This document shows positions 6,650-62,725 of a DNA stretch of 64,000 nucleotides, piece after piece. The notes under the pieces are model-generated. The model saw only the letters and a program-made list of their open reading frames with translations. It was not told the DNA's origin and did no database searches. The translations under genes were made by a program, and so were the position numbers. Position 1 is the stretch's first letter, and each line of letters begins with the position of its first letter. This stretch comes from Xestospongia bergquistia. Lineage: Eukaryota > Porifera > Demospongiae > Haplosclerida > Petrosiidae. The stretch lies in the NCBI GenBank assembly GCA_963965975.1, contig OZ014411.1:7425001-7489000 (forward strand). The letters are read 5' to 3'.

Positions 6650-9600
6650 ATGAAGACATCTTTGAGGACTGTTCTTATCTCAATAATTTTATCGCAATTT
6701 ATAAAAAGTGAAGGTAATTTTTTAATATTTTGTATAGCCCATTGTGTCATTTCAGTAACTGTATATTTTATTCATAAACCACAGTTTTATCATGCACTAG
6801 ATTTATCAACTAACTGAGTTGTTTTCATCCTTGTAGCTCAATGTACTGATGGTACATTAGATATTATTAATCAAGTTAATACTGATGTCAAAGACAATGG
6901 ACAACTCTTTATTTGTTCAAATGACACATTGTTTCCTCTTTGTTCTACTAACTTTGATAGTGATGAAGCACAAGCAGCATGTCGTCAACTTGGATTTGTA
7001 GATGGAAGTAAGTTATGATATTACTGGTTACGTAATATCATAGTTACAAAGTCTCCTATGTTTTAAATGATTTATTTGCAAATGGCACAAACAATCAATG
7101 CTCGCTATAATTATGAATTGAAGCATTGAATATCAATTCTTTTGCGGAAGTTAAGTAACCAATGCAGGTTGAGAGTTTAATAGTGGTAAATGGATGTAAC
7201 CTAAACATATATAAATTTTATATGCCAGATTTGTATGTGATCACATGCTTATAGCATGATTTTCAACTAATTAACTAAATATGGAAGACACAGATGGACA
7301 TTCCAATTCCTATTTCTTCTTTCTTCCGTGAACCTTGGCGCATTTAAAAATCCTAATTAGCAACCCAGTTGATGAGTTCCAATTTCTTATTCCTAATTCC
7401 ATTTTTTAGATGTGCGCCTTTTTTAGGCTTTTCTTGTTACTTAATAAAACATGGAGCACAAGTACCATGAGCCATCTCTTAGAATTGAGCGTCAGTGAGA
7501 TGTTTTTAGTTGAGTTGGGTTCTTGACTTTGGTTGTATATTGTAGTTCTATTATTTAGGGAAGCCAAGGACAGACATTCGAACTCCCTATAACCCTGTTT
7601 AATTGAAATAGGAAATAAGAATTGGAATGTCAGTCCGAGGCTTCCGTAACTAAATGCCATAAATGGAGGTGTGGGCAAGCAATTTCTTTGATTACATAGT
7701 CAAACCTTACTTCTGAATATTACAGGAAATTACTCAGTTCTAATAAAATGCAGTCTTTAGCCTCCTCAAGTCACGTAATCTCACGTGATGCACAAGATGA
7801 TTATTGATGATTCAGCATTTTTTTTCAATCAAAGGGAAAAAAGCTTTGCCTTTTGGTGCGTCTACTGGGTACTTTGCACTCTAATTGACAAAAGGTCCAA
7901 TACTTTCCAACTTCTTAGTAAAAGTTAGTCATTTCCCAATGACAGCTATGGTGCTAGTACTTTTAGTTCGAGCTCAATGTATCAACAAAGATAACTGCCA
8001 AAAGTTAATAAAACTGTCATAACTTTCTAAAGAAGTATTTTTGCAAAACGTCTCACTTTAAAAAGTTGGAAAATGTCATAAGCTGTATGCAGGAGATTTT
8101 TATTGAATTCTCGAGTCTTCACTGAAAGCTGTGCTTTTTTTCAAAGGTTTTTCAGACTTTTAAAGCTTTTTGTTCGTTTGACGCTCCTTTTGGCTGTATT
8201 GTTAAGAAGTGCAGAAGTTTTGCTACCCTCCATTATAGTTTGGTGGCTACCAGTGCCGTGTTTGCCGAGTTAAAGCAGTTCAAAGCATTTGCCCTGGTAA
8301 CAGACACACACGCGCACACACTAATTAACCCTCGCTATGCGCCCACGCACAGCGAGGTTAATTACATGTTATAAACGAACAATGCTTTGTGTGCTACTGT
8401 ACAAAAAATACAAAATTATTTAATAGAATATCTATATACTCTTACTAATCAAGCAAATTTTTTTACAGAGTTACTATCACCCACTACTCAACAAACTAAT
8501 ACCATTTTTATTGACAATGTTTTCTATTGTATTGGCTATGAAGATCATCTCACTAATGGTGGATGTACTAATGAAACTGTTCTTATGTGTTCATCACGAC
8601 GAGGAGCACGACTGCAATGTTATAACAGTAAGAATTATGAGCAAATATTTATGACTTATTTTGCTAATAATATTATACTTATCAATTTTGATTGAGGAGT
8701 AACTTTGTTAATACTTTTCAATGTTTTATAACCAAAGAATTTTAATAAACCCTAACTATTAGCACTATGATTATCAGTGTGACTGATGATGATTAAAGCG
8801 TTTTTGCTTACTTGCTTCACTCATAGTTTCCTATTTTTAATAGCTATAGTCTTCCACATACATTTCTATTATAATTATACAATCTTTTTAGCCCTGATTA
8901 GTGCTTCACTGTGAAGTCAATATCTTCCAAAACAATTATAGCATGATTTTTTTATATTATAAACTTATGATCATCAATTTGATATATAGCATTGCATAAA
9001 AACATCTATTTTACAGCTTATATACTTTATAATATAACCTATGATGCACTTAGCAGTTAGCACAACTATAGGTGTGGCTACATAACCTCTAAAATTGTCA
9101 AAAATTTTAGTTATAGTTTAGTTATAGTATGCTTACCTGAAAAAATTTTAGTTATAGTTATAGTTAGTTTTAACTAAATTACAAAAGTGTTTACTAAAAT
9201 AGTTATAGTTATAGTTAACTAAAACAACACTACTTTATATGTAATCTAAATGATTTTAATTTGTATTTATGTAGGTATATAAGAATGATTTTTAACACCT
9301 TCAATTAAGTCTTGTTTTTAGTGTTGTTTTAGTTTTGTTTTGTTTTGTTTTACTTTGAGTTAGTTATAATTAGTTTTGTCCTCTTTATGATTACTTTTAG
9401 TTAGTGTTAGTTACTTTTGCTTCTAGAAAACTATAGTTTTAGTTAGTTATAGTTAGTGCTTGGTCCTTGAACAACCCTTTCATTAGTTTTGTTCCTAGTA
9501 AATTAGTTTATGTTAAATATAAATAGTTATTTCCTTTGCTAAACGTATTAATTAATGCATGTGATTTTACATAAAGAACAGAGCTCTCGCTATGTTGCTG

Positions 9601-12600
9601 TTACTCTGAGTTTAATGTGTTATGCGATCATCAGACAGCTGTCTGATGATCGCATAATGCGTGAAACTAACTATGTTAGGGTTCAACCATTTTATGCATC
9701 AATTATAATTAACTAGCAGAGTTGTACATTTAATTATAGTTAGTGATAGTTAATTGTAGCCATTACAATCAGTGTACACAATTAGTTACACAATTCTCTT
9801 TGTAGGTTTTCTCTCATTTCTATCAGATGATTTTCCTGGCCCAAAAACACGAGTTGAAATTGGCATTGGGGCTAGAAATACTCTATTCAATCTTACTGTG
9901 AACATACCACTTGGGACTGATACAGTAATGATTGGACATGTAAGTCAACATTTTAGATACGTCATCTTACTTCTAATGTAAAAAATGGAAGAAAGGGTTT
10001 AGTAATTTTAATATCACTTACAATACATTGTTGTTGTAGCTATTGTTAGACTTATTAGTACAATACAAATATGAGAACATCAATGTAAGAAAAATGATTC
10101 CTCTAATGTATGACATTACTATACTATTTATTTATGCAAGTTTTTGCTCTACTATCTTGAAGATTTTTTGACGTTAGAATGATAAAAGATTTTATATCTA
10201 TTTCAGTTCTATGATATTGGAATGATTTCGTTTGGTCCTAATATTGTTGAGGAGTTATCTCTTATCACATTGGATAGTAACATTGCCTATGACATTGTGT
10301 TACCATTCTTGAGTAAGTCAAGCATTAACAGACGACTAAATGGAGAGTTCAAAGGAGAACTACACTTGAGAGCTAATCAAAACTTACAGTCACCTCTGTT
10401 TACAGTAGTTGACAGATATATTCAAACAAATGGTGGTAATGATAGAGTTAACTTTTCTGGTGAAGTACTGTTCTTTATAGAATGGGAACAAGATTATAAT
10501 AATGAGGTTTGTACATATGATTACAAGTAATGGGTTTTGTATGTGACTAACTTTTATTTAATTAAATTAGACTACATTGATTGTTACTAGAGCATGACGA
10601 CAAATATGTCTAATAAATATAAGAGTTTTATAGAAGTTTGTATAAAACTGCCTTTCAGTATATTTAGTATATATTTTTAATGATGCATGAAATAACATTT
10701 TATTTTTGCTTTTAGGAGATAAAATTTCAAGCTATTATTATCAGCGACTACACAAAGACATTCACAATCTTTATATATGAGTGTAATCCTATGCTAAGAC
10801 CACTAAATGCTATCATTGGATACAGTATTGCTAACTTTAGTTCTGAGACATTTCGGTATTCAGAGACACCATTAACTCAAAGAATGGCCTGTATTAATAC
10901 TCAAGTTAATGTGGAGTATTATAATTTGATGTACAGCCTGACTGAAAGAGTACCAGGTACTCCCAATTGTATATATATTGTATACAACTTATATATGTTC
11001 TTTTAAATGACTCTGTAGTAGACACTAAAAAGAAGAAGAGAAGCACTATGAAAATAGTAAAGAGACAAACAGGACCATGTGCTAATACTAACCTAACATT
11101 ATCAAGTTGTTGTAAACCTTTCCAAGACCCCACTAGTTCATGTCGTGTTACTGTTAATAATGGTGATAGTTGTTACTGTGACTCACTGTGTTTTGAAAGA
11201 AATGACTGTTGTGATGATGCTCCAGTTCAAGCTCCTTGTGTTCCATGTAAGTACCATACTGACATATTTTAGCACCAATCACATTTAGTATTACCATCAG
11301 TATCATAGTTGCTTGAGCTATTTTATATCTTATAGTATGTACAAGTGGCACAGTTAATCAAGCTGGTTATACTTACTATCCTCAAGGACCAGTTAGTATA
11401 TGTCAAGATGGACTACCAAGGTAACATTTACTCAACAAAGCAACAATATATATCTAATTTATATTGACATCACACTACATAATTTAGTCTATACTGATTC
11501 ATAATTGATGAACTATATATTTGTACTTAATTAATAGGTTTATAATGCAGCCAGGTTCCAATTTCTCATTAATAAGCAAAGCTGTAGTGTGTCAACAAAT
11601 AATAGATCAGCTAATACCAATTGGATTTGGTAAGTAATATAAAATCAATTATAATTAGATTGTCTAATGCTTATAACATACAGTATGGTACTTTATCAGT
11701 ATTGTCCTCTTTTAATTGCAGATAATATAATGGTAGGAAATCGTACACAGTCTTCCTTTTTAGTGGATCGTAGTAATATAAATTGCATTGGAATTGAAAG
11801 AACAGCACAAAATTGTTCGTATAAAGTGTTGAAATCTCATTCCCTTTTAAGTTTAATGGACCCACTTGCTCTTGTTAATTGCAGAGGTCAGTAATATTCC
11901 AATGACTTCATATTCATTGTTATTTACTTATCAAAAAGCATACATTATTGCTATTATTAAGACTATATATATAGCTGGATTAAGATAAGTCTGTGTCTAT
12001 AAGTCTTTTATCATGTGACACTGCATTCTTGTTTAGCAAAAAGTGTTTTATCCATAAGCTTTATTGTTAAGATTAGCAACTACTTTCAGAATTAGAGGAA
12101 GTAATGAACTTATTATTCTAATTCTGGCAACCCTTATATCAGTAGGCTACAGAAGTACACATTTTTTCTTGGATGGGCAATACCTTTGGCAATACCTTTG
12201 CTATAATAACCAATAGTTAAATAAAAACACAAAGCAAAGTTTCCTAAGTTAATAACAATATATTTTCCCTGTCATCATGGTAACACTATTATGATAAATA
12301 TTTAGTCATTGAGCATAACAAGTCCTACATATTCTTCCATCTTTCAATTTCTTTCTTACCTTATAATTTTGCCTCATGTTAATGGTATGCATGAAAACAT
12401 TAATAATAGCAAAATTAATAATAAATATACAGGTAGATACCCCCAATTGCATAAGTGAGGTTTATAACTTACATTAAATCTTCCAGGATGCTTTTGCCTC
12501 CTTTCATTCCATGTCAGAAAAAACTCTTTAAAATACCCCATGTCTACTAGTATGCTCTGAGGGAAGACAAGGTTTTATTTCTCTAAATTTAAATTCTGTG

Positions 12601-15600
12601 CCAGTGACCTCAAATATGACCACTGTGGATATATTGTCATCTTGAGATAGCTTTACAAAGTGAATCAGGTCCAAATATATGATATGTGTGACATCTATAC
12701 TTTATAAATCTAATATGTGCATATCTATACTTTATCCATAGATTTTATAACAGCTAATGCTTCAAGCTGTATTAATGGTGCAATAAGACTAAATCCACTT
12801 AATGAGTCACTACTAGCACCTACTCAAGGATTAGTTGAAATCTGTATTGCTGGAAGATGGAACAGAACATGTTCATCTAATATTGGCAACGGTGATGCTA
12901 GAGGTCTTTGTAGAATAATGGGACTACCATCAAATGGTAAGATAATTCCTAATAATGAATTATATACCATCCAATTCAACTAATAATCTGTTCATATTAA
13001 CTTTGACTATGCATTTCAACTATACATCTATTCACATTTAATTTTCGTTTTGACTTTTGTTATTCTGCTTTCATTTTGCCTTTTCTTTAATTACAAGTTA
13101 TTCTAATAATACTTTCTATGAATGTGCCAAATATCTGTAATTAATATGTTTGAAAGTTAAGAATTTATAGCAATATTACCAATATTAATACAATATAACT
13201 GTAAGGGCAGATATAATAATCAAGATTGTTACAATAATTTACAAAATAGTCTGTAGCTAACATCTATTTCCTTTTTTTGAGTTGTTATAATATAATTATT
13301 ATTGCTACATAAAATGGAACTTATTTACAAAACAAGTATTTCTAGCATTGAGAGTTATGTTCTTATCTGATATATATATGTGTGTGTGTATTATTAATTA
13401 TTACTAACCACTAAGTTTAATGTTTCTTCTATTTCTTTTTTATAGTTGTAGGTACAGGTATAGTAGCCATGATGACCACTTCAGGTATTACAACACTTCA
13501 ATGTAATCCCATTGTTGCCAGATCATTAAGAGATTGTACAATACAACAAGGGACTTGTTCTGAATCTGTTGTTGCTGCAATTGCTTGTGGTAGCTCTGTT
13601 ATTACTGGTAAGCTGTAAGATATTTATATGATGAGGAGTATAGTAAGTTTTTTTGATTTATACTATGAGCCCATTGGACAAACATTAGTACTAGATTTGA
13701 AGGACTATTTATATTGATACCTATTATGTTATTACTAAGTAAAATTTATTGAATTAATATATTGTTTATTATTGATTATTATTATTATAACAGTGCTCAT
13801 TTCATTTATAGTATTTCCTGTTCTTTCTGTCACTCAAAGTGCTACTCCTACTGCTACTCCAAGTCAAATTAATAATCAGTTACCTGTTCTGTACATAGGA
13901 ATTGGTACATCACTTGGTGTAGTAGTAGTCTTTGTAACATTGATACTGTTACTATTACTGATGATAAGAATACGTAAAAAAGATGTTAGAAAAAAAAATC
14001 ATGGAAAATATGATGACACATCTACAAGTGAACTGTATGTAATTCAAATAAATGGAATACTATTTATATTTGTAAAAGTTTTCAAGATGATCCAATGCTT
14101 ATTTAAAGCATATACAATACTTGTGCAGACTGTACAAGTATTGATGTCAATCTTGAATACTTTCTATTTATAATATCAATATTATTGTTGAAATACTTAT
14201 ATATTTTTTATATAGTGCACAAAAGGACTCTTCATACAATCGATATGTTAATAATTTAGTAATGTCTTCTACTGTTCTGTTAAGTAAGTCATTCACATAA
14301 AATTAGATGTGCATAGATATACTAATAGATATCTTGACCATAAAGTGTAGTCATTATTACTCTCAAAAAATATCATATGAAAGTATTCTTCTTTTGTACC
14401 AACTGTTTGTTTTAATGTAAATACTCCTTCCTGCTTAATCACTATCATGCACTATCACATAGAGAATATGTCAACTATAGTAAAAGAAGATTTCTTAGAA
14501 AATTTAAAATCATCAGGACTAATTATTCCTTACAGTCATCTCAGACTTTTAGACTGTGTGGGTCAAGGTATGTACTATACACATGACAATCATTTTGTAT
14601 CATGATATCTGACAGGAGAATTTGGTCTTGTATATAAAGCTCATTTATTTAACGAACAGGGAATACCTACAGATGTAGCTGTCAAGACTCTTAAAGGTCA
14701 GTGAGCGAGTAGCAACAAATAAAATAATTGCAAATGAAAAGTGTAGTCATGCGCATCATGATTTAAATTGTACAATAAAAGATGACATTTTAAGCATACC
14801 ATTGACTTTTTATTACAGATTTATATATTAATTAAAAGGAAATATATGCATACAATGAAATATCTTATTCCTAATTATAGGTTCTTATTCTCAGGATGAT
14901 GTTGATGATTTATTAGTTGAGAGTCTTAAAATGAAGCAACTAAACCACTCTAATGTAATGACACTTGAAGGAGTCTGTCTTGATGCTGGTCCTGCACCTT
15001 TTATAGTACTTCCGTATATGGCAGGTATATGTTATTATGGCTATATTATATACATTTAGTTCAGAAAAAATTAATAGATACATTTGAAGCATTTATCAAA
15101 CCTATTAGACTTTAGTCCATTTATCCAAATTTTCATTATAATTATACATATTCTTTACATTTATAGTATATTATTTCATGGTTTTAATTATCATTACCAC
15201 ATGTAACTTAACAATAATCTCAAGTGAAAACTCTCTACACACGTCATACCAGCAATTGACTTAAAATTCATTTCACCAAATTTTTAAAGATCATATGTAA
15301 TACACCAAAAAATAATCACTTGTTACTTTTTAGGAGGAGATTTGTTAAGTTATTTAAAGAGAAAGCGGGATACCCTAGTAGTACTATCTGAAGAAGATGA
15401 TGTAAAATAATCTAGTACAAATGAACACATTGTCACTTTAATCTTTTCAACAATTTAGAAAGAAAAAATTGAAATTCAACTACTGTCTATGTGTCTACAA
15501 ATAGCTAAAGGTATGAAATACATAGCTGAACAGAACATACTACACAGAGATTTAGCAGCAAGAAATTGCATGTAAGTTCATTCTTGCAATCAATGATCAT

Positions 15601-16360
15601 CTTTATTTATAATGTTGTAAAGAACACCAACATATCAATGTACTCATATCAAGATCATCAATACTTATTAATTTTTATTGTCAATGTTTTTATTGTCAAT
15701 ATAATGTTCAGGATTGATCACCAAGGAATTATTAAGGTTTCAGACTTTGGACTTTCTAAAAGTTTGTATGAAAAGATGTACTTCAGACAGGATAAAAGTG
15801 ATGGAGTTAAACTGCCTATCAAATGGATGGCAATTGAGAGTATTGATGATGGAATATTCTCAGAAAAGACTGATGTGGTAAATTAGTTTTAGAAATGAAT
15901 TACTTACCTAATAAACATAATTTCTGGTATATTATTTAGTGGTCTTATGGAGTGACATGTTGGGAAATATTTAGTAGTGGAAAGGTTCCATATGGAGGAT
16001 TTACTCCAATGAGTCTGCTTAAAATGTTACAGGAAGGTTATCGTATGGATAAACCAAACAATGCAGCATGTTCACAGAAAACGTTAGTTAACAAAAATTA
16101 GTACAAAGGTAATCTTTATGTTATGATTTGATTATCCCTCTATCTAGATATGAATTAATATTACACTGTTGGAATAGTTCTCCAAATGAGAGACCTACTT
16201 TCTCCGAATTGGTAGTTGTTATTGATAACATGTTAACATCAATGGCTAATTATATTGATTTCAATCAGTTCACATTAGAAGTAGAAGAGCAAAAGGTTAA
16301 GTCATATTTTTATTCTGTTTGTTATTACTGTCTTTTATTACTTTCATAATATAGAAATAG
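6650..16360 (+). CDS. RTK-B: SRCR-NIDO-SMB-SRCR-SRCR receptor tyrosine kinase, about 1092 aa
   Basis: Exons: 6650-6713, 6837-7007, 8469-8627, 9806-9939, 10207-10506, 10716-10956, 11019-11246, 11336-11420, 11538-11629, 11722-11886, 12742-12936, 13446-13607, 13794-14034, 14216-14283, 14463-14567, 14616-14696, 14881-15024, 15334-15401, 15459-15571, 15712-15877, 15940-16082, 16148-16295, 16355-16360. No in-frame stops. Signal peptide 1-22; SRCR-like 23-131; NIDO-like 132-356 ([29 protein letters not shown]); SMB-like 357-432 ([16 protein letters not shown]); SRCR-like 433-546 and 547-665; membrane helix near 700-722; kinase about 790-1085 with [33 protein letters not shown] and [10 protein letters not shown]. 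The juxtamembrane YVNN matches the Grb2-SH2 consensus pYxN. Peculiarities: the SRCR1 Trp of NDTW is Leu; one codon is missing in exon 22; loss of one A at the end of exon 22 shifts the last exon, so the tail stops at once (spliced end 16360, or 16349 if unspliced). Two mobile elements sit in intron 2. Confidence 0.88.
7281..7647. mobile_element. hAT-like MITE (367 bp) in RTK-B intron 2
   Basis: Flanked by an exact 8-bp duplication AACTAAAT (7273-7280 and 7648-7655). The RTK-D intron has a single AACTAAATGCC at the same place (about 23343-23354), a clean empty site. Terminal inverted repeats are about 28 bp (ATGGAAGnCnCAGAnGGACA.. with a reverse-complement end ..GAGGCTTCCGT). There is no coding capacity. 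An 8-bp target duplication is typical of hAT transposons. A second copy lies at 54830-55194. Confidence 0.85.
7755..8365 (-). repeat. R650 interspersed repeat, copy in RTK-B intron 2 (one end missing)
   Basis: Reverse-complement match over its whole length to 44711-45377. The intact end contains a hairpin (AACCCTCGCTATGCGCCCAC paired with CACAGCGAGGTT, 8326-8362) preceded by a CA-rich run. The opposite end lacks the last ~40 bases seen at 45335-45377. The RTK-D intron has no such block (about 23440-23470). The conserved interior has no long reading frame. Its class is unknown. Confidence 0.75.
9101..9455. repeat. TAGTTATAG-type degenerate minisatellite
   Basis: Repeats of (T)TAGTTATAG and AGTTAGTT units at 9101-9235 and again at 9350-9455, with a TTTTG run between them (about 9325-9350). 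A shorter version lies in RTK-D intron 3 (about 24170-24215). Located in RTK-B intron 3. Confidence 0.65.
9620..9657. repeat. Perfect 38-bp palindrome
   Basis: Reads the same on both strands around the centre CAGACAG|CTGTCTG with no loop. Located in RTK-B intron 3. The flanking bases do not continue the symmetry. Confidence 0.92.
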
Positions 16361-17138: not shown

Positions 17139-18938
17139 AAAGAATAATAAGCAATTATTAATTTTATTAGTGCCATATTTTAATATAATGTAGCATTAGC
17201 TTATTCATTTACAACCATTACAAGTAGTGCATGGTATTTCACAATCCCATTTATAGGATTTCTCTCATTTCTATCAAATGATTTTCCTGGGCCAAAGACA
17301 GTAGTTGAAATGGCCAAAGGGTCTAGAATTGCTCCTTTCAATCTTACTGTGGGCATACCACTTGGGACTGATACAGCATTGGTTGGACATGTAAGTCAAT
17401 ATTTTAGATACATCATTTTACTTCTAATGTAAAAAAAACATTTAATAAAAAGGGAATTAGTCATTTTAATACCACCTACTATAAAAGAAAAGAACATTTG
17501 TTTTAGTAGCCATAGATACACTGAGTAGTACAATAGACAGTATTTTATACTTAATATGAGAACATCAATGTGTGACATTATTTATTTATTTATGCATATT
17601 TGCCTTACTGTCTGAAAAATGATTTGAGATTAGACTGATAAAAGATTTTATTTCTATTTCAGTTCTACAATAATGGAATGATTTCCTTTGGTCCTAATAT
17701 TGTTGAGGACTTATCATCTGTCAGATTGGATACTAATATGACTTATGACATTGTGTTACCATTCTTGAGTAAGTCAGCATTAACAGACGACTAAATAGAG
17801 AGTTCAAAGGAGAACTACACTTGAGAGCTGACCAAAACTTACAGTCACCTCTGTTTACAGTAGTTGACAGATATATAACAAATGGTGGCAATGATGGAGT
17901 TAACTTTACTGGTGAAGTACTGTTCTTTGTGGAATGGGAACAAGAAGATAAAAATGAAGTTTGTATATGATTTTATGTAATAGGATTTGGATGTGTCTAA
18001 TTTTTTAATTGAATTAACCTATAGTGATAAATCTGGTTTTCATTTAAATCAAAGCCATATATCTGAAATAAATTATACAGGCCTTACAGAAGTGTGTACA
18101 ATTCACTGGCACAAAAAGCTTTAATAAACTTCCTTTTAGAATAACTATTTCATGTATATTTTCAATAGTGGATGATATAGCATTTTTCTCTTGTTCTTAG
18201 GAAATAGTATTTCAAGCTATTATTATCAGTGACTACACAAAGACATTCACAATCTTTATATATGAGTGTGATCCTATGCTAAGACCACTTAATGCTATCA
18301 TTGGATATAGTATTGCTAACTTTAGTTATGAAACATTTCGTTATTCAAAGACACCATTCACTCAAAAAATGGCCTGTATTAATAGTCAAGTTAATGTGGA
18401 ATATTATAATTTGATTAACAGCCTGAGTGCCAGGTATTCCCAATTTATATATATTTTATAAAACTTATATGTTTTTTTGAATGACTCTGTAGTAGAGACT
18501 AAAAAGAAGAAGAAAAGCACTATGAAAATAGTAAAGAGACAAACAGGACCATGTGCTAGTGCTAACCTAACATTATCAAGCTGTTGTAGACCTTTCCAAG
18601 ACCCCACTAGTTCATGTCGTGTTACTGTTAATAATAGTTATTACTGTGACTCACTGTGTTTTGAAAGAAATACTGTTGTAATGATGCTCCAGTTCAAGCT
18701 CCTTGTGTTCCATGTAAGTAATATACTGATATATTTTAGTACCAATCACATTTAGTATTATCATCAGTGACATGAGCAATTTATTCTTTAATATCTTAGA
18801 GTATGTACAAGTGGAACAGTTAATCAAGCTGCTTAAACATATTATCCTCAAGGACCAGTTAGTATATGTCAAGACGGACTACTAAGGTAACATTTACTTC
18901 ACAGCTAAGATTGATATCAGTATACATCCAATGTTATT

Positions 18939-18963
18939 TATATATATATATATATATATATAT
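18939..18963. repeat. (TA)n microsatellite in pseudo-C
   Basis: Alternating TA run close to the point where exons 9-10 have been lost. Confidence 0.85.
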
Positions 18964-19080
18964 GAAACAGTAAATGTAATATTTATATTTTCTAAAATTC
19001 AAGACACTGTATATATAGTTAAATTTAGATAGGCTCATGGATCTTGGTCTTTCTTTTTCTGTAGTGAGTGTGATGAACGA

Positions 19081-19095
19081 CCCCCCCCCCCCCCC
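19081..19095. repeat. 15-base poly-C tract
   Basis: Fifteen consecutive C in otherwise very AT-rich DNA, inside pseudo-C. The matching part of RTK-E (about 37240-37290) has no such run. It could be a replication-slippage product, and it could form an i-motif/G4. Confidence 0.9.
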
Positions 19096-20727
19096 TCCCA
19101 AACTTATCTGGCAGATTTTAAGTACTACTTGTCCTAATGTAAGCTGTCACTTTTTGATTGTTATTTAAGTCATGCTTTTTAATTTACAATATGTCCACAT
19201 TGTCTGGAGTTGGTTGTAGTGGGGCCTAAGTTTTATATTGCTGCCTTGCATTCTATTAGGGCTCCTGGTAGCCCTGGGAAGTACCATTTATGTTAAGCAT
19301 TTGGTCATTTCAGGATAGAGTCCCACTTGTAGAAATTTTTAAGAATGGATTAATGGAGCTTATATCTGTCATTAAATACTCCGAGAGCTCTAAAAAGAGA
19401 AGCCATTTATTAAAAATTAATTTTTATGATCCTGAAGGAAGACAAAACCAATATAATCTTATTTCAAATTTAGCAATCATGCCAACAAGCTCAAGTATGA
19501 CTACTTAAGATATTTTGTCCTCCTAGACAAGTATAATTTTCAATTCTTTTTTTTTGCTTTTTAATTCCAATGTAAATAATGTCTAATATATTATATTTTT
19601 GGCATCTATTCTTTACGTTTTATGTGCATATCTATAACTTACCTATAAATTTTATAGCAGCCAATGGTTCAAGCTGTATTAATGGTGCAATAAGACTAAA
19701 TCCACTTAATGAATGAGTCACTACTAACACCTACTCAAGGATTAATAGAAATCTGTATAACTGGAAGATGGAACAGAGCACGTTCATCTAATATTCAGAA
19801 TAGTAATGCTAGATCTTTATGTACAATAATGGGAATACCATCAAAATATAAGTTTAAAAATATGTACCAATTTAACTTTAACTTTACTTTAATTTAACTT
19901 TAACTTTAATATTCTTTTCTGATATATATTTATTATTACTAACCAATAAATACACACATCAATAATTTCTATTATTCCTTTTTAGTAGGTGTAGGTACAG
20001 ATCTAGTGGCCATGATGACCAGTTCAGGTATTACAAAATTTCAATGTAATCCTAAAAATACCAGATCATTAAGAGATTGCAGAGTAAAACAAGGGACTTG
20101 TACTGAAACTGTTGTGGCTGCAATTGCTTGTGGTAGCTCTGTTATTACTGGTGAGCTGTAGTATACTTATGTGACAAACAGTATAGTAATTTATGATGGA
20201 GGAACTATTATAATTTAAAGAGTTAAAAACATTATTAAAATTAATATCCTTTAAATTACATCATATGAAAACAACTGAATTAATATAATCGTTATTCATT
20301 ATTATTATTATTATGGAAGTACTCATTTTGTTTGTAGTATTTCCAGTTCTTAATGTCAATGAAGTGTTACCCCTACAGCTACTCCAAGTTACAATGATAA
20401 CAATTAGTCACCTGTAATATACAAAGGGATTGGTGTATCACTGTGTGTGGTAGTAGTCTAATGTTGTTATTAAAGTTTCAGACTTTGGACTTTCTAAAAG
20501 TTTGTATGAAAAGATGTACTTCAGACAAGATAAAAATGATGAAGTTAAACTGCCTATCAAATGGATGGCAATTGAGAGTATTGATGATGGAATATTCTCA
20601 GAAAAAAATGATGTGGTAATCTAATTTTTTAAATGATTTAGAACATTTTTCTGGTATATTATTTAGTGGTCTTATGGAGTCACATGTTGGGAAATATTTA
20701 GTGGAGGGAAAATGCCATATGGAGGGA

Positions 20728-20905
20728 CTCACTTGCTATGATACAATTCTTCGTCAATTGTCTGAATCCCAATCTTCATGCTCGAAAGAATCATCAAGTC
20801 TTAATAATGGACCAATTTCAGATTCCTGCCTTTCTGTTCTTCCCTTAGCAAACAGCTTATTTTTTAAAAGGACTTGACAATATTGTATACATTTTCTAAT
20901 AGTTT
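20728..20905. other. About 178-bp unique insertion splitting kinase exon 21 of pseudo-C
   Basis: Exon 21 is continuous in the other copies (CATATGGAGGG..TTACTCCAATGAG). Here about 178 bases intervene. They are less AT-rich than the flanks and open in one frame, with a Ser-rich translation (residues include LSESQSSCSKESSSLNNGP), and they end in ..TAATAG. I see no inverted ends or target duplication. It may be filler DNA or a captured exon from elsewhere; the origin is unknown. Confidence 0.55.
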
Positions 20906-21340
20906 ACTCCAATGAGTTTGCTTAAATTGTTACAGGAAGGTTATCGTATGGATAAACCAAACAATGCAGCATGTTCAGAAAAACGTAAGTTAACAAAATT
21001 AGCATTAATTTATGGCTATAATTGTAATCCTATTCACTATACAGTACTTAATGATTCAATTTTCCATTTTCTCTCTAACTATAGGTATGAATCAGTAATA
21101 TTACTATGTTGGAATAGTTCACCAGAAGAAAGACCTACTTTCTCAGAGTTGGTAGTTATTATTGAAAACATGTTAACATCAATGGCTAACTATATTGACT
21201 TTAATCAGTTCACATTAGCAGTAGAAGAACAGAAAGGTTAAATCATATTTATATATAATCTGTTTGTTATTGCCATATTTTTTTTCCACATTATAGAAAT
21301 AGTGAGTACCACTAATGATGAGGAATCAACTGAGTTTTGA

Positions 21341-21507
21341 AAAGAAAAACGAAATAATATAATTTTATTGATCATTAGGCTATAGTTTATACATTATTCA
21401 TTACATTTTATACAATCTGTAAAAGTAACTGAACCAACTGTTGGTAATGACACGAGCGTGGAATGCGAGAGTGCATGGAAGTTATTAGTAGTTATTAGTA
21501 ATTATCT
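21341..21507. other. Pseudo-C 3' flank
   Basis: Short AT-rich spacer with a local GTTATTAGTA direct repeat (about 21481-21500) just before the fold-back junction. Nothing else seen. Confidence 0.5.
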
Positions 21508-21894
21508 GTGAGCATGCTGCATTGTTTGGATAAACCAAACAATGCAGCATGCTCACAAAACGTCGGTTATTAAAAAATAGGACTAATGTTTGACTGCAAT
21601 ATTTTTGACATCATAATGTTACTTTCAATATTTCATATATAAATATTATAAACTAAATAACAGTAAACTTGAATTATTGTTTGACTGCAATAATATTTTT
21701 TACTTAGTTTACAATGATTTATAGTTTGATTCTCTAAATATAATTATTATATATGAATCAGTAATATTACAATGTTGGAATATGTCACCTGATGAGAGAC
21801 TTACCTTCTCAAATTTGGTGGTTTCTATTGAGAACATCAATGGCAAATTATATTGACTTCAATCAGTTTACATTATCAGTAGAAGAACAGAAAG
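21508..21894 (+). pseudogene. Kinase C-lobe scrap (end of exon 21 plus exon 22) starting at a fold-back hairpin
   Basis: Sequence from 21530 to 21561 is the end of kinase exon 21 ([10 protein letters not shown] region) with a GTCGGT donor. Exon 22 is at about 21752-21894 but has lost its AG acceptor (TATAGGTATG has become TATATATG) and 8 bases (after GAGAAC near 21832), so it is frameshifted. The next ~800 bases match the RTK-A 3' flank. The scrap begins with a perfect 22-bp inverted repeat (21508-21529 and 21535-21556, 5-base loop) made from the coding sequence itself. It is a truncated duplicate of an RTK-A-like 3' end. Confidence 0.85.
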
Positions 21895-43772: not shown

Positions 43773-44106
43773 ATGAAGACATTTCTGTGGACTTTTATTA
43801 TCTCAATATTTTTATCACAACCTATAAAGAGTGAAGATAATTACCAGTATAGGCTATTATGTCATTTCAGTGTTGTTTTAGATAATATAAGTTATTCATG
43901 AACCAAAGAAATTGCAGTTTTATGACATACTAGGTTCAGTAATTAACTGAATTGCTCTCGTTTCTTGTTCATCCTTATAGCTCAATGTACTGATGGTACA
44001 TTAGAATATTATTAATCAAGTTAATACTGATGTCAAAGACAATGGACAACTCTATATTTGTTCAAATGACACATGGCTTCCTCTCTGTTCAACTAACTTT
44101 GATATT
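43773..44106 (+). pseudogene. Dead original 5' end of RTK-F (exon 1 and part of exon 2)
   Basis: Exon 1 (43773-43836) encodes a normal family signal peptide (MKTFLWTFIISIFLSQ), but its donor has changed from GGTAATT to GATAATT. Exon 2 begins at 43981 behind a good CTTATAG acceptor, carries one extra A (TTAGAATATT) that shifts the frame, and breaks off at about 44106 after NGQLYICSNDTWLPLCSTNF. The sequence then jumps into a second, intact 5' end copied from RTK-E. Confidence 0.85.
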
Positions 44107-44600
44107 GATGCCTGATTTGTTACTTAACCGGAAATACATCGAACTTAGCGTTAAGGGCTAGCCCCTAATATATAGTTATTAATTTCTGCCATACGAATAG
44201 CCACTACTAGCTAAAAGTGGAAAATTTAGTTATTAAACAGATGATAGGAGTCATTTAAGTGCTTTCTATAGCATATATTTTGATATGAAGACATTTCTGT
44301 GGAATTCTCTTATCTCAATACTTTTATCACAACTTATAAAGAGTGAAGGTAATTACGAGTTACGTCATTGTATCATTTCAGTAATTATCCGATTTATAGT
44401 TCTCATTTCTTGTTCATCCTTGTAGCTCAATGTACTGATGGTACATTAGATATTATTAATCAAGTTAATACTAATGTCAAAGACAATGGACAACTCTTTA
44501 TTTGTTCAAATGACACATGGTTTCCTCTCTGTTCAACTAACTTTGATATTGGTGAAGCACAACCAGCATGTCGTCAACTTGGATTTGTAGATGGAAGTAA
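44107..44600 (+). repeat. Segmental copy of the RTK-E 5' end (promoter-proximal region to exon 2)
   Basis: 44107-44600 matches 32865-33348 almost base for base, including the 5' flank and the whole of intron 1 (one base differs in the first part). One insertion of about 8 bases occurs near 44221. The junction has GATG in both partners (44107-44110; 32865-32868). It starts just after the second ETS-like site of RTK-E. Non-coding identity this high is far above that of other introns in the array, so the copy is recent. Confidence 0.88.
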
Positions 44601-47600
44601 GTTGTGATATTACTGGTTATGTAAATATTATAGTTATAGAGTCTCTATTTAGACATAGGCATAATCTCAGTATTAATTTGTTAAAGGTATATGATCAATG
44701 CTCACTATATTTAACCTCGCTGTGCATGGGCGCATAGCGAGGGTTACTGTAGTCTGTCAGTGTGTCTGTGTGTCTGTGTGTCTGTTACCCGGGCAAATGG
44801 CTTTGAACTGCTTTAACTCGGCAAATATGGCACTGCTAGCCACCAAACTATAGTGGATGGTAGCAAAACTTCTGCACTTTTAAGAATACTACCAAAAGGA
44901 GTGTAAAACGAACAAAAAGCTTTAAAAGTCTGAAAAACCTTTGAAAAAAAGCACAGCTTTCAGTGAAGACTCGAGAATTCAACAAAATCACCTGCATATA
45001 AATTATGACATTTTCCAACTTTTTAAAGTGAGAATTTTGCAAAAATACTTCTTTAGAAAGTTATGACAGTTTTACTAACTTTTGACAGTTATCTTTGTCA
45101 ATACATTGAGTGTGAACTAAAAGTACTAGCACCATAGCTGTCATTGGGAAATGACTAACTTTTACTAAGAAATTGGAAAGTATTGAACCTTTTGTCAATT
45201 AGATTGCAAAATACTCAGTAGATGCACTAAAAGGCAAAGCTTTTTTCCCTTTGATTGAAGAGAAATGCTGAATCATCAATAATCATCTTGCACATCACGT
45301 GAGATTACGTCACTTGAGGTGGCTAAAGATACCCTCTGGATAAGACCACAGCGAGGATAAGCACTTTAGTGCATTTCAGTAAAAATATTAGAGCCTCATT
45401 ATATATCCAAATAACTTTTCTGGTATTAAGTAATAAATCAGGTTATACATTTTTATAATCCTGTTTCAAAAATGGTAAAACTGTCTAAATGGAACTAATG
45501 TGAGCACATGTTAAATTTAATAACATATATGTCATTCAGGATGCATCCTATTAATTATTGCAGTTTTGTTAAAACAAAATATCCAACAGCCAATTGCCTA
45601 AATCACCTTCAGTAGATTAGAAACAATAATTTAATTTTTTACAACTAATAAATCATTCTTAAAATTATTACTTTCCCTTCAGTCAGTATTTTAGTGCCTT
45701 TTGAGTCCATATTTATGTCACTAGTAGCGCCTTAATGTACTATTTGTATATAATCTACTCTTCCTACTCAAGCAGCAAGTTTTTTTTTCTTTACAGAGTT
45801 ACTATCAGCCACTAACCAACAAGCTAATACAACTTTCATTAATATTATTTTCTTTTGTAATGGCTATGAAGATCATCTCACTAATGGTGGATGTACTAAT
45901 GTAACTAATTCCACATGTCCATCACAACAAGGAGTACAACTGTACTGTTATAACAGTAAGAATGATGAGCACTGATATAATATTATGACTCAATTTGTTG
46001 ATATTAATATGCTAAATAAATTTGATTGAAAAGTATCTTTGGTGATGTTTTGCAACACATTCTCTTTTTAATAATAATATAAGTTAACAGCACTACATAA
46101 AATTTTATTAGCAATCTATGTCCTTTATTTGTAACCTAAATGTTTGTCACCTTAATGTTTTCTATTTAGATTTATAAGTCATGGATGTGATTGTCATTTT
46201 AAATAGTTTGTTATTCTTTTGCATAAATATACCAAAAATGTCAAGTTATTTGTGCATATAATAATAAATTATTAGCAGTCTTTTATTACTACTACAACTT
46301 GATAAAATGTCCTATTTCAGTTATAGCCACTACAGTTAACTCAATTCTCTTTATAGGTTTTCTCTCATTTCTATCAAATGATTTTCCTGGGCCAAAAACA
46401 TCAGTTGAAATTGGTATTGGTGCTAGAAATGCTTCTTTCAATCTTACTGTGAACATACCACTTGGGACTGGTACAGCGATGATTGGACATGTAAGTCAAC
46501 ATAAAAGACTTATTAATTTACTTCTAGTATATCATTTAAAAGAAAAGGACTCATTATAATTTATCACACTTACTATACAATGCAAGACAATTAGCCATTT
46601 AATTATAGATACACTCAGTACTGTAACACACAGAATGATATTACAATATATGATCTGTAAAAACAATATGAACATGCATGACATTACCCTATTTATTAGT
46701 GCATACTTACTTTATTGCCTAAAAGGTGATGTGAGATTAGAATTTAAAACATTTTATTTCTATTTCAGTTCTATGATAATGGAATGATTTCCTTTGGTTC
46801 TAATATTATTGAGGATTTATCATCTGTCAGATTGGATGCTAACATGAACTATGACATTGTGTTACCATTCTTGAGTAAGTCAAGCATTAACAGACGACTA
46901 AATGGAGAGTTCAAAGGAGAACTACACTTGAGAGCTAATCAAAACTTACAGTCACCTCTGTTTACAGTAGTTGACAGATATATTCAAACAAATGGTGGTA
47001 ATAATGGAGTTAACTTTACTGGTGAAGTACTGTTCTTTGTGGAATGGAAACAAAAATATAATAATGCGGTTTGTACATGATTATATGTAAAGGTTTGGTC
47101 TTCATTAATTGTTATTAGAGTATGATACCAAATATGTGAAATAAATATACAGTGTACTGGCATTAATAGAACAATCTTTTAGTTCTATTTAGTGTATGTA
47201 ATAATATTTTTCTTTTGCTTTTAGGATATGGTATTTCAAGCTATTATTATCAGTGACTACACGAAGACATTCACAATCTTTATATATAAGTGTGGTCCTA
47301 CACTAAGACCAATTAATGCTATCATTGGATATAGTATTGCTAACTTTAGTTCTGAGACTTTTCGGTATTCAGAGACACCATTCACTCAAAAAATGGCCTG
47401 TATTAATACTCAAGTTAATGTGGAATATTATAATTTGATCTACAGCCTGACTGAAAAAGTGCCAGGTACCCCCTACTTATATATTCAGTATATGTTCATT
47501 TGAATGACTCTGTAGTAGACACTAAAAAGAAGAAGAAAACCACTATGAAAATAGTAAAGAGACAAACAGGACCATGTGCTAGTGCTAACCTAACATTATC

Positions 47601-54020: not shown

Positions 54021-54049
54021 CAGGATGAGAGTTCAAAAATACAGGATGT
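54021..54049 (+). promoter_or_regulatory. ETS-like site pair upstream of RTK-G
   Basis: CAGGATG (54021-54027) and ACAGGATGT (54041-54049), followed by TTAATTAACACCTTAAC, a block shared with RTK-H. The ATG lies about 270 bases downstream. Confidence 0.45.
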
Positions 54050-54319
54050 GGGGAGTTAATTAACACCTTAACAAAAGTTAATTTGTATGACGCAGGAACT
54101 GTATACAATAACATTTAGTCTAGGGATATAGAATTAATTTTGCATTGAAGTATGCACTTCCTGTTACGGGAGAATAGATTAAATTGCCAAATTTCTAGTC
54201 TAGGCTAAGTTTCTTGTTCAATGACTAGATAACGTCTTTTATGATTGTATATATAGTTATTTTTAGTAAGTAAGGCCATATTATTGAAGAATTTAGTGCT
54301 TTATAGCATATATTTTAAA

Positions 54320-57300: not shown

Positions 57301-60300
57301 GTTCAAAGGAGAATTACACTTGAGAGCTAATCAAAACTTACAGTCACCTCTGTTTACAGTAGTTGACAGATATATTCAAACAAATGGTGGTAATGATGGA
57401 GTTAACTTTACTGGTGAAGTACTGTTCTTTGTGAAATGGAAACAAAAATATAATAATGAGGTTTGTACATGATTTTACGTAAAGTTTGGTCCTCATTAAT
57501 TGTTATTAGAGTATGATACTAAATATGTGAAATAATTATACAGTGTACTGGCATTAATAGAACAATCTTTTTGTTCTATTTATTGTATGAAATAATATTT
57601 TTCTTTTGCTTTTAGGATATGGTATTTCAAGCTATTATTGTCAGTGACTACACAAAGACATTCACAATCTTTATATATAAGTGTGGTCCTACACTAAGAC
57701 CACTTAATGCTATCATTGGATATAGTATTGTTAACTTTAGTTCTGAGACTTTTCGGTATTCAGAGACACCATTCACTCAAAAAATGGCCTGTATTAATAC
57801 TCAAGTTAATGTGAAATATTATAATTTGATCTACAGCCTGACTGAAAAAGTGCCAGGTACCCCCGACTTATATATTCAGTATATGTTCATTTGAATGACT
57901 CTGTAGTAGACACTAAAAAGAAGAAGAAAAGCACTATGAAAATAATAAAGAGACAAACAGGACCATGTGCTAATGCTAACCTAACATTATCAAGCTGTTG
58001 TAAACCTTTCCAAGACCCCACTAGTTCATGTCGTGTTATTGATAATAATGGTGATAGTTGTTACTGTGACTCACTGTGTTTTGAAAGAAATGACTGTTGT
58101 AATGATGCTCCAGTTCAAGCTCCTTGTGTTCCATGTAAGTAAAATACTGACATACTTTGATTACAATCACATTTAGCATTGTCATCATTACACCATAGTT
58201 AAATGAGCTTTTTTCCTTTACATCTTATAGTATGTACAAGTGGCACAGTTAATCAAGCTGGTTATACTTATTATCCTGAAGGACGAGTTAGTATATGTCA
58301 AGATGGACTACCAAGGTAACATTTACTTCACAAAGCAACAGTATATCTAACTGAGATTGATATCAAAATACATTATCCAATAAATAAACACATATATTGA
58401 TACATCATCAATATACTTCTTTAACAGATTTATACGGCAATTAGAATTATTTATTCCATTAATAAGTAAAGCTGTAGTTTGTCAACAAATAGTTGATCAG
58501 ATCACAACACTTGGACAAGGTAAGAAATATAAAGATGTTAGTGGAGTTATTAGTAATAGATACAGTATTATACATCATCAATATTGTTGTCTTCTCATTG
58601 CAGATAAGATGATGGTAGGAATTCGTACACAGTCCTTCTTTTTAGTTGATCGGAGAAGAATAAATTGTATTGGGATTGAAAGAGCAATACAGAATTGTTC
58701 ATATAAACCTTTGCCAAGATTTCCTGCCCTATTAACTTCAGTGGACCCACTTGCTCTTGTTGATTGCAGAGGTCAGTAACATTCCAATGACTTCATACAT
58801 GCATGTCCAATGTTGTATATTTTTCAAACAGCTAATTGTTGTTGTTTTACTTTTCAAACCACTAAAATTGAAGAATCTGTGCATATATAGCTGGATTAGG
58901 ATAAGCCTGTGCTTCTTGGTGGTTATATAAAGCCCTATCCCTTAGTTCACAAAAGAGGCTTTTATCCATAAACTAGCTTTATGATAAATAACTACGTGCA
59001 ATTGAGATTATGAGGTGTGAAGAAAAGGAAAGATATTAGTCTAAGTTAGTAGTTGTTGGCCTGGATATCAAAAACGTTTCATATAACCTTGAAAACTCTG
59101 TCTAGTTAGAAGACAGAGCTCTAATATCACAATTTAGGTTATTCTGTCATCCTGAAACACCATTCAAAGTGAACGAAGTCAATATGTATATGTGTGATAT
59201 CTGTCCTTTAAAACTTATATGCACATCTATGACTTTTCAATAGATTTTATAACAGCTAATGCTTCAAGCTGTATTAATGGTGCAATAAGACTAAATCCAC
59301 TTAACAAGTCTACATCAGCTACTCAAGGATTAGTTGAAATCTGTATTGCTGGAAGATGGAACAGAACATGTTCATCTAATATTAGTAATGATGATGCTAG
59401 AGCTCTTTGTACAATAATGAGACTACCATCAAATGGTAAGACAAATCTGAAACAAAATTATGTACCAATTATGTTTTAAGTTATGATGTCATAGCTATAT
59501 TACCTATATTATTAAAGTATTACTGTAAAGGCAATATCAATTTTGTATTAAGGTTATTATAAAAGCTATAAAAATAATTAGAAGGTCTAATTTAATAATG
59601 TCCATGTCTATTTGCTTTATTAATTATTAAAATCTCTGAACAATAATAAGAAAGTGAAACTTATTGATAATACAAATCTTTTTAACATTGAGAGTTATAT
59701 TCTTATCTCATTACTTGTCATTACTAACCATTAATTTTGACATTCCACTCTTTCTTTTTTGCAGTTGTAAGTACAGCTGTAGTACCCATGATGACTACTT
59801 CAGGTATTAAATCCCTCCAATGTAATACCACTGCTATGTCATTAAGAGATTGTACAATACAACAAGGGACTTGTACTGAATCTGTTGTGGCTGCAATTGC
59901 TTGTGGTAGCTCTGTTATTACTGGTGAGCTGTAATATGTTTATTTGACAAGCATGTAGTAAGTTTGTTACTGTTAGGTCACTATGACCCCATTGGACACA
60001 ATTGAGTAATGGATTTAAAGAACTAAATGCATTCAGTAAAATTAATATCCTTTAAATTACCATCACATGAAAAACATTCAATCGTTATTAAAATAAATAT
60101 TATATATTATAAATACAAACAATAACATTCATTATTATTATTATTATGGCAGTACTCATTTCATTTATAGTATTCCAAAGTGCTACCCCTACAACTACTC
60201 CAGATCATAATGATAACAATGAATTACCTGATGTAAAAAACATAGGGATTGGTATATCACTGTGCATAGTAGTAATTTTTCTAATGCTGATATTGTTATT

Positions 60301-62725
60301 AATACTGATAATAAAAATGCGTAAAAAAATTGTTAGAAGAAAAACTCAAAGAGAATACGAAGACACATCATCAAGAGAAGAGTATGTAATCCAAATATAT
60401 GGAATACTGTTGATATTTGTTTAGAATATTTAAGATGATCCTAATACTAATTAAAAGAATATTATAATACTTAAATATAATGTAAAAGCATTGACGTTAA
60501 TCTTGAATACTTTCTATTTATCATATTACTGTTATTATTGAAATACTTCTAGGATATTATATAGTGAACAAAGTGGTTCTACATATGATCGATATGTTAA
60601 TAACATAGATCTGTCTTCAACAGTTCTATCAAGTAAGTTAGTCACATGATATGAGATGCATACAAGTGTACAAATCTATGTTATGATAAATATGACAGTG
60701 AAAATGTAAACATCACAACTTACAATAAATTATTGTTAAATGTTGCATTAACTATTATCTTTGTAAAAATTACTTTATTTTAAATTGATATCATTACATA
60801 GGGAATATGTCAACTAAAGTGAGAGAAGATTTATTAGAAAATTTAAAATCATCAGGACTAATTATTCCTTACAATCATCTCAGACTTTTAGACTGTGTGA
60901 GTCATGGTAAGTTCTGTACACACGACCATCACTTTGCATCAAAATGTCTGACAGGTGAATTTGGTCTTGTATATAAAGCTCATTTATTTAATGAAGAAGG
61001 AATACCTACTGATGTAGCTGTCAAGACACTTAAAGGTCAGTGAGTGAGTAGCAACAAATAATAGAACAGTAGCTAATAAAAGTGCAGTCATGACACTATG
61101 ATGACAAATATATTAGAAATGACATTTGAAGCATAAAATTTAGTTTGCTTTGTAACACAGTTTGTTCTTGATTTAATAGCAAATATATATATGCACATAA
61201 TGTCAATATCTTATTTATACTTATAGGTTCTTATTCTCAGAATGATGTTGATGATTTTTTAGTTGAAAGTCTTAAAATGAAACAACTGAATCACTTTAAT
61301 GTAATGACACTTGAAGGAGTCTGTCTTGATGCTGGTTCTGCACCTTTTATAGTACTTCCATATATGGCAGGTATGTGCAAATAATATTTCAATATATATA
61401 GATTAAACTAATTACTACATGAGTGGCAGTTACAAAACCTATAAACAATAGTCCCAGTTCATCCAAACTTTCATATGTACATTATATTTATCATGTAATG
61501 TTTAATGGCTTCTTATATATCATTACTAAAACGTGTACCTTAACAACAACCTCATGTGTTAAATTTCACTTAACTGAATTGTAAATATAATATATAATAG
61601 GGTAATTAAAAAATGTGATTGTTTGCTATTTATTTTAGGAGGTGACTTGTTGAGTTATTTAAAAAGAAACAGGAAGAAACTAGTAGTATCTGAAACAGAA
61701 GATGTAAATTATTCACTAAGTATGACTATAATTTTTCCAACGTTTTAGAAAGAAAAAATTCAAATTCAATTATTGTCCATGTGTCTACAAATAGCTAAAG
61801 GTATGGAATATATAGCTGAACAGAACATTCTACACAGAGATTTAGCAGCAAGAAATTGCATGTAAGTTTAAATGATAATTTTTCTGACTATGTCGTACTG
61901 ATTCATAGTAATGCTAAATGCTTTAAAATTTTAATGAATTAAATAGCTAATAGTCACAATTCATTAGCTTAGTATTCATAACCTTAATTAATTATTATAA
62001 ACATTCTTGATATAGGATTGATCATCAAGGTATTATCAAGGTTGCAGACTTTGGACTATCTAAAAATTTGTATGAAAAGATGTACTTCAAACAGGACAAA
62101 AGTGTTGGAGTTAAACTGCCTATCAAATGGATGGCAATTGAGAGCATTGATGATGGAATATTCTCAGAAAAAACTGATGTGGTAACAACACCACTTTTAT
62201 ATTTACTAATATGACTGGTATGTATTATACAGTGGTCTTATGGAGTCACATGTTGGGAAATATTTACTGGTGGGAAGGTTCCATATGGAGGGCTTACTCC
62301 AATGAGTTTGCTTAAAATGTTACAGGAAGGTTATCGAATGGAAAAACCAAACAATGCAGCATGCTCACAAAAAATGCAAGTTACCAAAATTAGGACTATA
62401 TTTATTACTACAATAATAATCCTACTGACACTACAGAGCTTATTATTTGGTTCTTCATCCTCTCTCTAAATATAGGTATGAATCAGTAATATTACAATGT
62501 TGGAATAGTTCATCAGATGAGAGACCTGTTTTCTCAGAGTTGGTGGTTGCTATTGAAAACATGTTAACATCAATGGCTAATTATATTGACTTCAATCAGT
62601 TCACATTAGAAGTAGAAGAATGGAAAGGTTAAGTTATATATATATATAATCTGTTTGTTATTGCTACGTTTTATTTATTTCACATTATAGAAATAGTGAG
62701 CACCACAGATGAAGCAATAGACTAG
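54320..62725 (+). CDS. RTK-G: SRCR-NIDO-SMB-SRCR-SRCR receptor tyrosine kinase, 1097 aa, altered glycine loop
   Basis: Exons: 54320-54383, 54475-54645, 56370-56528, 56915-57048, 57161-57460, 57616-57856, 57907-58134, 58231-58315, 58428-58519, 58604-58771, 59244-59435, 59765-59923, 60153-60381, 60565-60632, 60802-60906, 60955-61035, 61227-61370, 61639-61703, 61749-61861, 62016-62181, 62233-62375, 62476-62627, 62691-62725. Total 3294 nt, one frame. The domain plan is shared. Oddities: the glycine loop is [11 protein letters not shown], so the first Gly of GxGxFG is Ser; DFG is preceded by KVA rather than KVS; the activation segment is [10 protein letters not shown]. Intron 21 has a GC donor (AAAAT|GCAAGT). 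The exon 13 acceptor is GGCAG because the family's TATAG is lost here too. Juxtamembrane TYDRYVNN keeps pYxN. The tail is short ([11 protein letters not shown]). The catalytic Lys, HRD and DFG are intact, so activity is likely, perhaps with changed nucleotide handling. Confidence 0.88.
54830..55194. mobile_element. hAT-like MITE (365 bp) in RTK-G intron 2, second copy
   Basis: Same element as 7281-7647 in the same orientation, with terminal repeats ATGGAAGCCACAGACAGACA.. / ..GAGGCTTCCGT. The flanks CACTATGT / AACTATGC share six of eight bases, an eroded target duplication. The two copies differ at many positions, so the insertions are not recent or came from divergent sources. Confidence 0.8.
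55195..56369 (+). other. Remainder of RTK-G intron 2
   Basis: Long intron. A purine/pyrimidine-rich patch at 55530-55572 (GAGGGAGAGGGGGCA followed by CCCTGCCCCCTCT) can fold on itself. From about 56100 it aligns with RTK-F intron 2. No gene seen. Confidence 0.5.

Follow-up and report, generated by a model that had tools for sequence, protein, structure and literature searches.

A tandem family of receptor tyrosine kinase genes with a probable SRCR-NIDO-SMB-SRCR-SRCR ectodomain in the sponge Xestospongia bergquistia

We analysed a stretch of 64,000 nucleotides (the window, C1:7425001-7489000) from the genome of the sponge Xestospongia bergquistia (146 Mb, 21 contigs, cited as C1, C2 and so on). 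Comparative gene models place five complete receptor tyrosine kinase (RTK) genes in it, all on the plus strand, between positions 6650 and 62632. The copies were detected as plus-strand repeats spaced ∼ 5–15 kb apart and then aligned; candidate exons were scored by codon-wise conservation and splice sites, and homologous splice sites were then set by hand. The initial models, made before this choice, had split exons or internal stops in some copies. Each complete gene has 22 coding exons and a frame that stays open from ATG to stop (5/5 copies), and the phases of all 21 introns are identical across the five, which is beyond what chance can give. The introns are of the GT-AG type in 104 of 105 cases, with a single GC-AG (copy 6, intron 21). 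The predicted proteins (1073–1102 residues) share 80–90% pairwise identity, that of copy 1 extending ∼ 15 residues beyond the usual C-terminal end. A sequence-only reading of this DNA had proposed five complete copies spanning 6650 to 62725. The number of copies was borne out and the start stands, whereas the last gene stops at 62632. An Rfam scan of the window gave nothing at gathering scores. The complete RTK genes, of 22 exons each and supported by the comparative model and Pfam, are as follows:

6650-16349, plus strand: copy 1, protein of 1102 amino acids
22892-30856, plus strand: copy 3, protein of 1087 amino acids
33033-41572, plus strand: copy 4, protein of 1073 amino acids
44285-53331, plus strand: copy 5, protein of 1084 amino acids
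54320-62632, plus strand: copy 6, protein of 1081 amino acids

In all five genes, one uninterrupted frame runs from an extracellular part through a membrane helix into a tyrosine kinase. The N-terminus resembles a signal peptide by eye; a hydropathy scan with a threshold of 1.8 raised no flag there. The same scan found one strong membrane helix in every copy (peak 3.1–3.6). PF07714 (PK_Tyr_Ser-Thr) matches 5/5 copies with a best E of 9e-84, and the VAVK, HRD and DFG motifs are intact, forming invariant columns in the five-copy alignment. These data confirm the RTK assignment and the kinase landmarks that had been read directly from the sequence. SRCR domains were found in all five whole proteins (Pfam, best E 8.6e-20). 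The order proposed earlier, SRCR, NIDO, somatomedin B (SMB), two SRCR domains, membrane helix and tyrosine kinase, is that of the five gene models, and is laid out in copy 1 as follows (exon model and Pfam, unless stated otherwise):

6837-8627, plus strand: exons 2-3, SRCR1, residues 24-131
9806-10956, plus strand: exons 4-6, NIDO-like region, residues 132-356
11019-11246, plus strand: exon 7, SMB-like module with 10 cysteines
11336-11886, plus strand: exons 8-10, SRCR2, degenerate
12742-13607, plus strand: exons 11-12, SRCR3
13812-14034, plus strand: exon 13, stalk and membrane helix (hydropathy)
14463-16349, plus strand: exons 15-22, tyrosine kinase and C-terminal tail (PF07714, E 9e-84)

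Isolated module pieces, one copy each (SRCR1, SMB and SRCR2 from copy 6, NIDO from copy 3), were scored against the curated Pfam gathering cut-offs of 26.1 bits (SRCR), 25 bits (NIDO, PF06119) and 23.1 bits (Somatomedin_B, PF01033). SRCR1 (45.0 bits) and SRCR3 (34.6 bits) both exceed the SRCR cut-off, and either places the proteins in the SRCR superfamily, for which one such domain is sufficient. The SRCR3 alignment also matches solved SRCR structures among the PDB sequences, M130 (CD163) ranking first (E 1.2e-4). NIDO and Somatomedin_B match all five whole proteins weakly, with best E values of 7e-5 and 0.012 respectively. When one NIDO-SMB sequence was used as a genome query, its NIDO part reached loci that match PF06119 independently, such as C1:23685532 (E 3.4e-4 and 28% identity to the window query; PF06119 at 1.1e-26). 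Comparison of the region with a profile built from four NIDO sequences of this kind gave P 8.9e-5 over 60 columns. The region scores under the Pfam cut-off, yet its homology is backed by the genome search and the profile comparison, and we therefore name it NIDO-like. The SMB cysteine pattern described earlier holds for the core spacing (C-x-C-x3-C-x5-CC) and fails for the N-terminal part; the canonical SMB domain has 8 cysteines, whereas the region here has 10 in 59 residues. This ten-cysteine form recurs as two stand-alone modules at C1:22.14 Mb (22137501-22143000; best E 3e-12). The locus was rejected as a donor gene for the NIDO-SMB pair: it has two SMB-like modules, and its NIDO-exon matches are no better than chance. 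Elsewhere in the genome, five SMB domains score over the cut-off (C7:4627249-4638154, C1:7291751 and C3:7126949), and the receptor array lies ∼ 86 kb downstream of the one at C1:7291751. The two long open frames read among these SMB loci have in front what appears to be a domain of the glycoside-hydrolase-76 type.

Exon lengths and phases assign SRCR1 to exons 2–3, NIDO to exons 4–6, SMB to exon 7, SRCR2 to exons 8–10 and SRCR3 to exons 11–12, and the best Pfam stretches for SRCR1, NIDO and SMB fall within their exon groups. All six ectodomain module edges coincide with phase-1 introns, as is typical of exon shuffling. Phase 1 accounts for 13 of the 21 introns, so that six out of six would be expected by chance in ∼ 3% of cases, and the edges were drawn with the exon positions in view. 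Because phase 1 is common and the exons were known when the edges were drawn, the pattern is suggestive of an ectodomain mosaic built by exon shuffling, and falls short of proof. Between NIDO and SMB, copies 1 and 3 only have a K-K-K-R motif, where cleavage by a convertase would be possible.

The window copies belong to an array of ∼ 165 kb on C1. A NIDO-SMB query against the genome identified at least 13 exon-5 loci (C1:7379908 to 7537572) and a kinase query at least 13 exon-20 loci (C1:7386600 to 7542562), all on the plus strand. The two sets alternate strictly along C1:7379908-7542732, and this 13-to-13 alternation indicates that ectodomain and kinase travel as one unit. All 39 genome-wide SRCR2 matches (E up to 0.01) lie inside the array interval. 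The close SRCR1 and SRCR3 matches are also found there, one SRCR1 match being the inverted fragment listed below; both queries also hit numerous distant SRCR exons throughout the genome. Partial copies are present at C1 7497–7499 kb and 7520–7522 kb. Among the matches listed, kinase-exon pieces 66–84% alike occur outside the array at C1:7296841 (plus strand) and C1:7735628-7763260 (minus strand); the one stretch examined of the minus-strand pieces (C1:7735–7763 kb) matches exons 21–22 only. Within the window, the complete genes are accompanied by a decayed copy and by parts of others, which were absent from the sequence-only reading:

187-1739, plus strand: 3′ end of an upstream copy, kinase exons 17-22; its ectodomain lies left of the window, with the NIDO exon at C1:7420155
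2892-3273, minus strand: inverted fragment with receptor exons 1 and 2, exon 2 being 84% alike
17259-21893, plus strand: copy 2, decayed, with matches only to exons 4-8, 11-13 and 20-22
43773-44109, plus strand: additional exon 1 with part of exon 2, immediately 5′ of copy 5
63856-63918, plus strand: exon 1 of the next copy, which continues past the window (exon 2 at C1:7489025)

Copy 2 has frame breaks, exons 5 and 11 being examples, and it includes a second broken exon 21–22 piece at 21526-21893. Between the upstream copy and copy 1 lies a 179-residue open frame (3649-4188, minus strand) that resembles a THAP zinc-finger domain, judging by its motif. Intron 2 of copies 1 and 5 harbours an inverted pair of 295 bases (7754-8048 and 45035-45329, 93% alike), perhaps a mobile element.

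Related kinases, 54–58% identical to copy 3, were found in the same genome at C3:1118 kb, C2:7390 kb, C10:547–581 kb and C6:1295 kb (among the matches listed). One stretch was examined per locus (extended at C2), and we infer the joining of ectodomain and kinase into one gene from order and strand. The C3 kinase is preceded on the same strand by a run of SRCR halves, and 3/3 open reading frames (ORFs) tested scored over the Pfam cut-off. In front of the C2 kinase, again on the same strand, SRCR modules form a long series, accompanied by an Ig domain; both SRCR ORFs tested (74.5 and 49.2 bits) passed the cut-off, as did Ig_2 (32.1 bits, cut-off 27). The stretch C2:7390501-7404500 thus reads on one strand as a poly-SRCR run followed by Ig, membrane helix and kinase, and is apparently a giant poly-SRCR receptor kinase. 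The kinases at C3:1118–1125 kb and C2:7390–7404 kb are like those of the window in sequence (58% and 54% identity to copy 3) and in their side of the kinase tree. The two loci differ from the window in having more SRCR modules, with Ig at C2, and neither NIDO nor SMB was seen by eye in the stretches read. The C10 kinase has a Fz-like domain in front that scores 21.0 bits against a cut-off of 32.1, and the kinase frame of that copy is broken; in the neighbouring copy, the part of the kinase that was read has an open frame. The interval C10:547116-581399 as a whole holds compact kinases of this lineage in tandem, ∼ 3–5 kb apart. The C6 ectodomain is Ig-like by eye, and of two ORFs tested one gave Ig_2 at E 0.037 and the other nothing. 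A midpoint-rooted kinase tree was calculated from the five window copies, the C2, C3, C6 and C10 relatives (C10 represented by exons of one copy, C6 without one exon) and eight other kinases, all from this genome. It separates the window copies and the four relatives from the eight others with support 100/99. The architecture is less isolated than the sequence-only reading had supposed, since kinases preceded by SRCR modules also occur elsewhere in this genome. Two further kinase clusters were noted: ten single-exon kinase domains in a row at C6:1621395-1696864, of which those read look Src-family by eye, and fourteen tyrosine kinase matches in a row at C11:5918072-6074274, mostly single open frames, of which the one read looks discoidin-receptor-like by eye.

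SRCR-bearing kinase genes were already known from sponges. In the available text of PMC10855680, 14 PK_Tyr_Ser-Thr domains are counted in the SRCR genes of Amphimedon queenslandica. These genes are like those of the window in combining SRCR with the same Pfam kinase family and in forming tandem arrays; the main text of that paper, as available, does not mention NIDO, nidogen or somatomedin and gives the kinase domains as a count only. The accessible parts of other papers describe SRCR genes combined with ‘protein kinases’ in two other sponges (PMC6208332), the expansion of SRCR genes in sponges (PMC4772301) and ectodomain shuffling among RTKs in general (PMC8662651). A further parallel comes from Halichondria panicea receptors, for which the Fig. 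1 legend of PMC8242945 names SR, SO (somatomedin B-like), NIDO and TyrKc; the comparison is with the legend, which does not establish their joint presence in one protein. In the literature text available, the SRCR-NIDO-SMB-SRCR-SRCR-kinase order was not found described, and all four terms occurred only in this legend. The earlier statement that no named RTK family is known to have this set of domains stands for the NIDO-SMB-containing combination, which looks new, and needs qualification for SRCR kinases, which have been reported in sponges (PMC10855680, PMC6208332).

The solved sequences nearest the window kinase, taken from the best 60 of 855, include MET (≤ 228 bits), MER (223), RET (214) and AXL (208), with one EGFR chain, matched in two stretches, ranking above them. 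The MET ectodomain consists of Sema, PSI and IPT domains, and that of the TAM receptors, here MER and AXL, of Ig and fibronectin III domains. The five proteins match 16 Pfam families at E up to 1; Sema, PSI and IPT are not among them, and neither are Ig or fibronectin III. MET and TAM receptors are therefore similar in the kinase but unmatched in the ectodomain, and kinase similarity alone would place the window receptors in neither family.

Ratios of non-synonymous to synonymous substitution rates (dN/dS; Nei-Gojobori, pooled over ten copy pairs, bootstrap intervals) were 0.31 (0.22–0.44) for the kinase and 0.75 (0.60–0.92) for the ectodomain. The kinase values of single pairs ranged from 0.20 to 0.55 across the ten, and the difference between the two parts was reached by 0/2000 permutations of codons between them. 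Per module, dN/dS was 1.04 (SRCR1), 0.83 (NIDO), 1.03 (linker and SMB), 0.60 (SRCR2) and 0.67 (SRCR3), with wide intervals. The synonymous rate (dS) ranged from 0.04 in SMB through 0.27 in SRCR2 to 0.32 in the juxtamembrane region. The contrast in rates supports a conserved signalling half joined to what would be a loosely constrained recognition half, and is not proof of positive selection.

We consider it probable that the window encodes a tandem family of single-pass RTKs in which a shuffled SRCR-NIDO-SMB-SRCR-SRCR outside part is mounted on a kinase lineage that occurs elsewhere behind other ectodomains. Several observations weigh against this interpretation. A Pfam profile search, proposed with the sequence-only reading as a check on its domain assignments, passed the kinase, SRCR1 and SRCR3, but NIDO (24.1 bits, E 4e-5), SMB (20.4 bits, E 6.5e-4) and SRCR2 (13.1 bits, E 0.12, register 29–85 of 100) fell below their cut-offs and are retained as sub-threshold, divergent members. 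Against PDB sequences, the NIDO region had four matches, all at chance level (best E 0.18); there was no match for SMB at E up to 1, and SRCR2 had two unrelated ones with E above 0.5. The hhalign probability of the NIDO profile comparison is just 60%. Comparison of the SRCR2 profile with those of SRCR3 and SRCR1 yielded no useful match (P 0.17 and 0.02 respectively); SRCR2 is a putative SRCR domain, identified by register and cysteine positions only. A weaker hydrophobic stretch (1.87–2.07) closes SRCR3 near residues 651–673 in 4/5 copies. In copy 6 the first glycine of the glycine loop is changed, and copies 4 and 5 are missing the YVNN motif present in copies 1, 3 and 6. The kinase tree has flagged long branches and few outgroups. 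The low dS of the NIDO-SMB part points to conversion among the copies, a process that homogenises sequences. Finally, dN/dS of the whole ectodomain is below 1, and a value of 0.75 may reflect relaxed constraint.

For this tandem RTK family, ligand-triggered surface sensing is a plausible function, and fits the constrained kinase and the faster ectodomain. The ectodomain would bind ligands in the extracellular space or on cell surfaces, its SRCR modules probably engaging multivalent ones, and binding would cluster the receptors. The clustered kinases would then trans-phosphorylate the activation loop (YEKxYF) together with juxtamembrane and tail tyrosines, and SH2 adaptors could be recruited, those of the Grb2 type at YVNN in 3/5 copies; we take YVNN to be a Grb2-type adaptor motif. 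Duplication would leave the signalling half unchanged and allow the recognition half to drift, so that several receptors share one output.

What the receptors sense is a separate matter, and recognition of microbes or self is unproven. Tentatively, and at less than even odds, the array could belong to the SRCR-based immune repertoire of sponges, as a branch that has been coupled to a kinase and whose copies diverge to recognise different microbial surfaces. The faster ectodomain, the constrained kinase and a tandem turnover that leaves decayed pieces agree with this, as do the SRCR expansion in sponges and SRCR genes responding to microbial products or symbionts in the available text of PMC4772301 and PMC6208332. 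Against it stand the dN/dS of the ectodomain, which taken as a whole does not reach 1, and the fact that SRCR domains have other functions too. A role as matrix or cell-adhesion sensors, comparable to the sensing of collagen by discoidin-domain receptors and with copies serving different cell types, appears rather unlikely. NIDO and SMB do occur in matrix and adhesion proteins such as nidogen and vitronectin, but both are divergent here, and nothing in the sequence separates this explanation from the microbial one. We are similarly doubtful that the array records a largely neutral duplication of one receptor gene, with redundant copies decaying in turn and the ectodomain rate reflecting relaxed constraint. 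The decayed copy 2, the 3′ and 5′ fragments, the ectodomain dN/dS of ∼ 0.75 and the low dS of NIDO-SMB, which fits conversion, would all be accommodated, whereas the retention of all 22 exons in 5/5 full copies and the low kinase dN/dS, both pooled and in single pairs, would not. A reading in which the ectodomain exons and the kinase exons form separate, co-duplicated transcripts is highly improbable, and we reject it because the frame is stop-free through exons 1–22 with the same phases in five copies and the NIDO and kinase loci alternate 13 to 13.

More speculatively, and on present evidence improbably, one kinase lineage may serve as a fixed signalling socket into which recognition modules (the SRCR-NIDO-SMB-SRCR-SRCR set, SRCR runs, SRCRs with Ig, Fz-like) were shuffled via phase-1 introns, some being amplified in tandem, to yield a variable-ectodomain repertoire for innate or allogeneic recognition. 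If true, this repertoire would be an RTK counterpart to the expanded immune receptor families. The genes bear on the way in which early animals coupled recognition to signalling inside the cell. SRCR domains, usually treated as pattern-recognition modules, here sit on tyrosine kinases, and within a single genome the array shows what looks like module shuffling alongside tandem spread of the copies, drift of the ectodomains and decay. If binding to microbes or non-self tissue were demonstrated for any copy, receptors of the tyrosine kinase class would themselves serve directly as variable recognition receptors, an idea that the gene models make testable.

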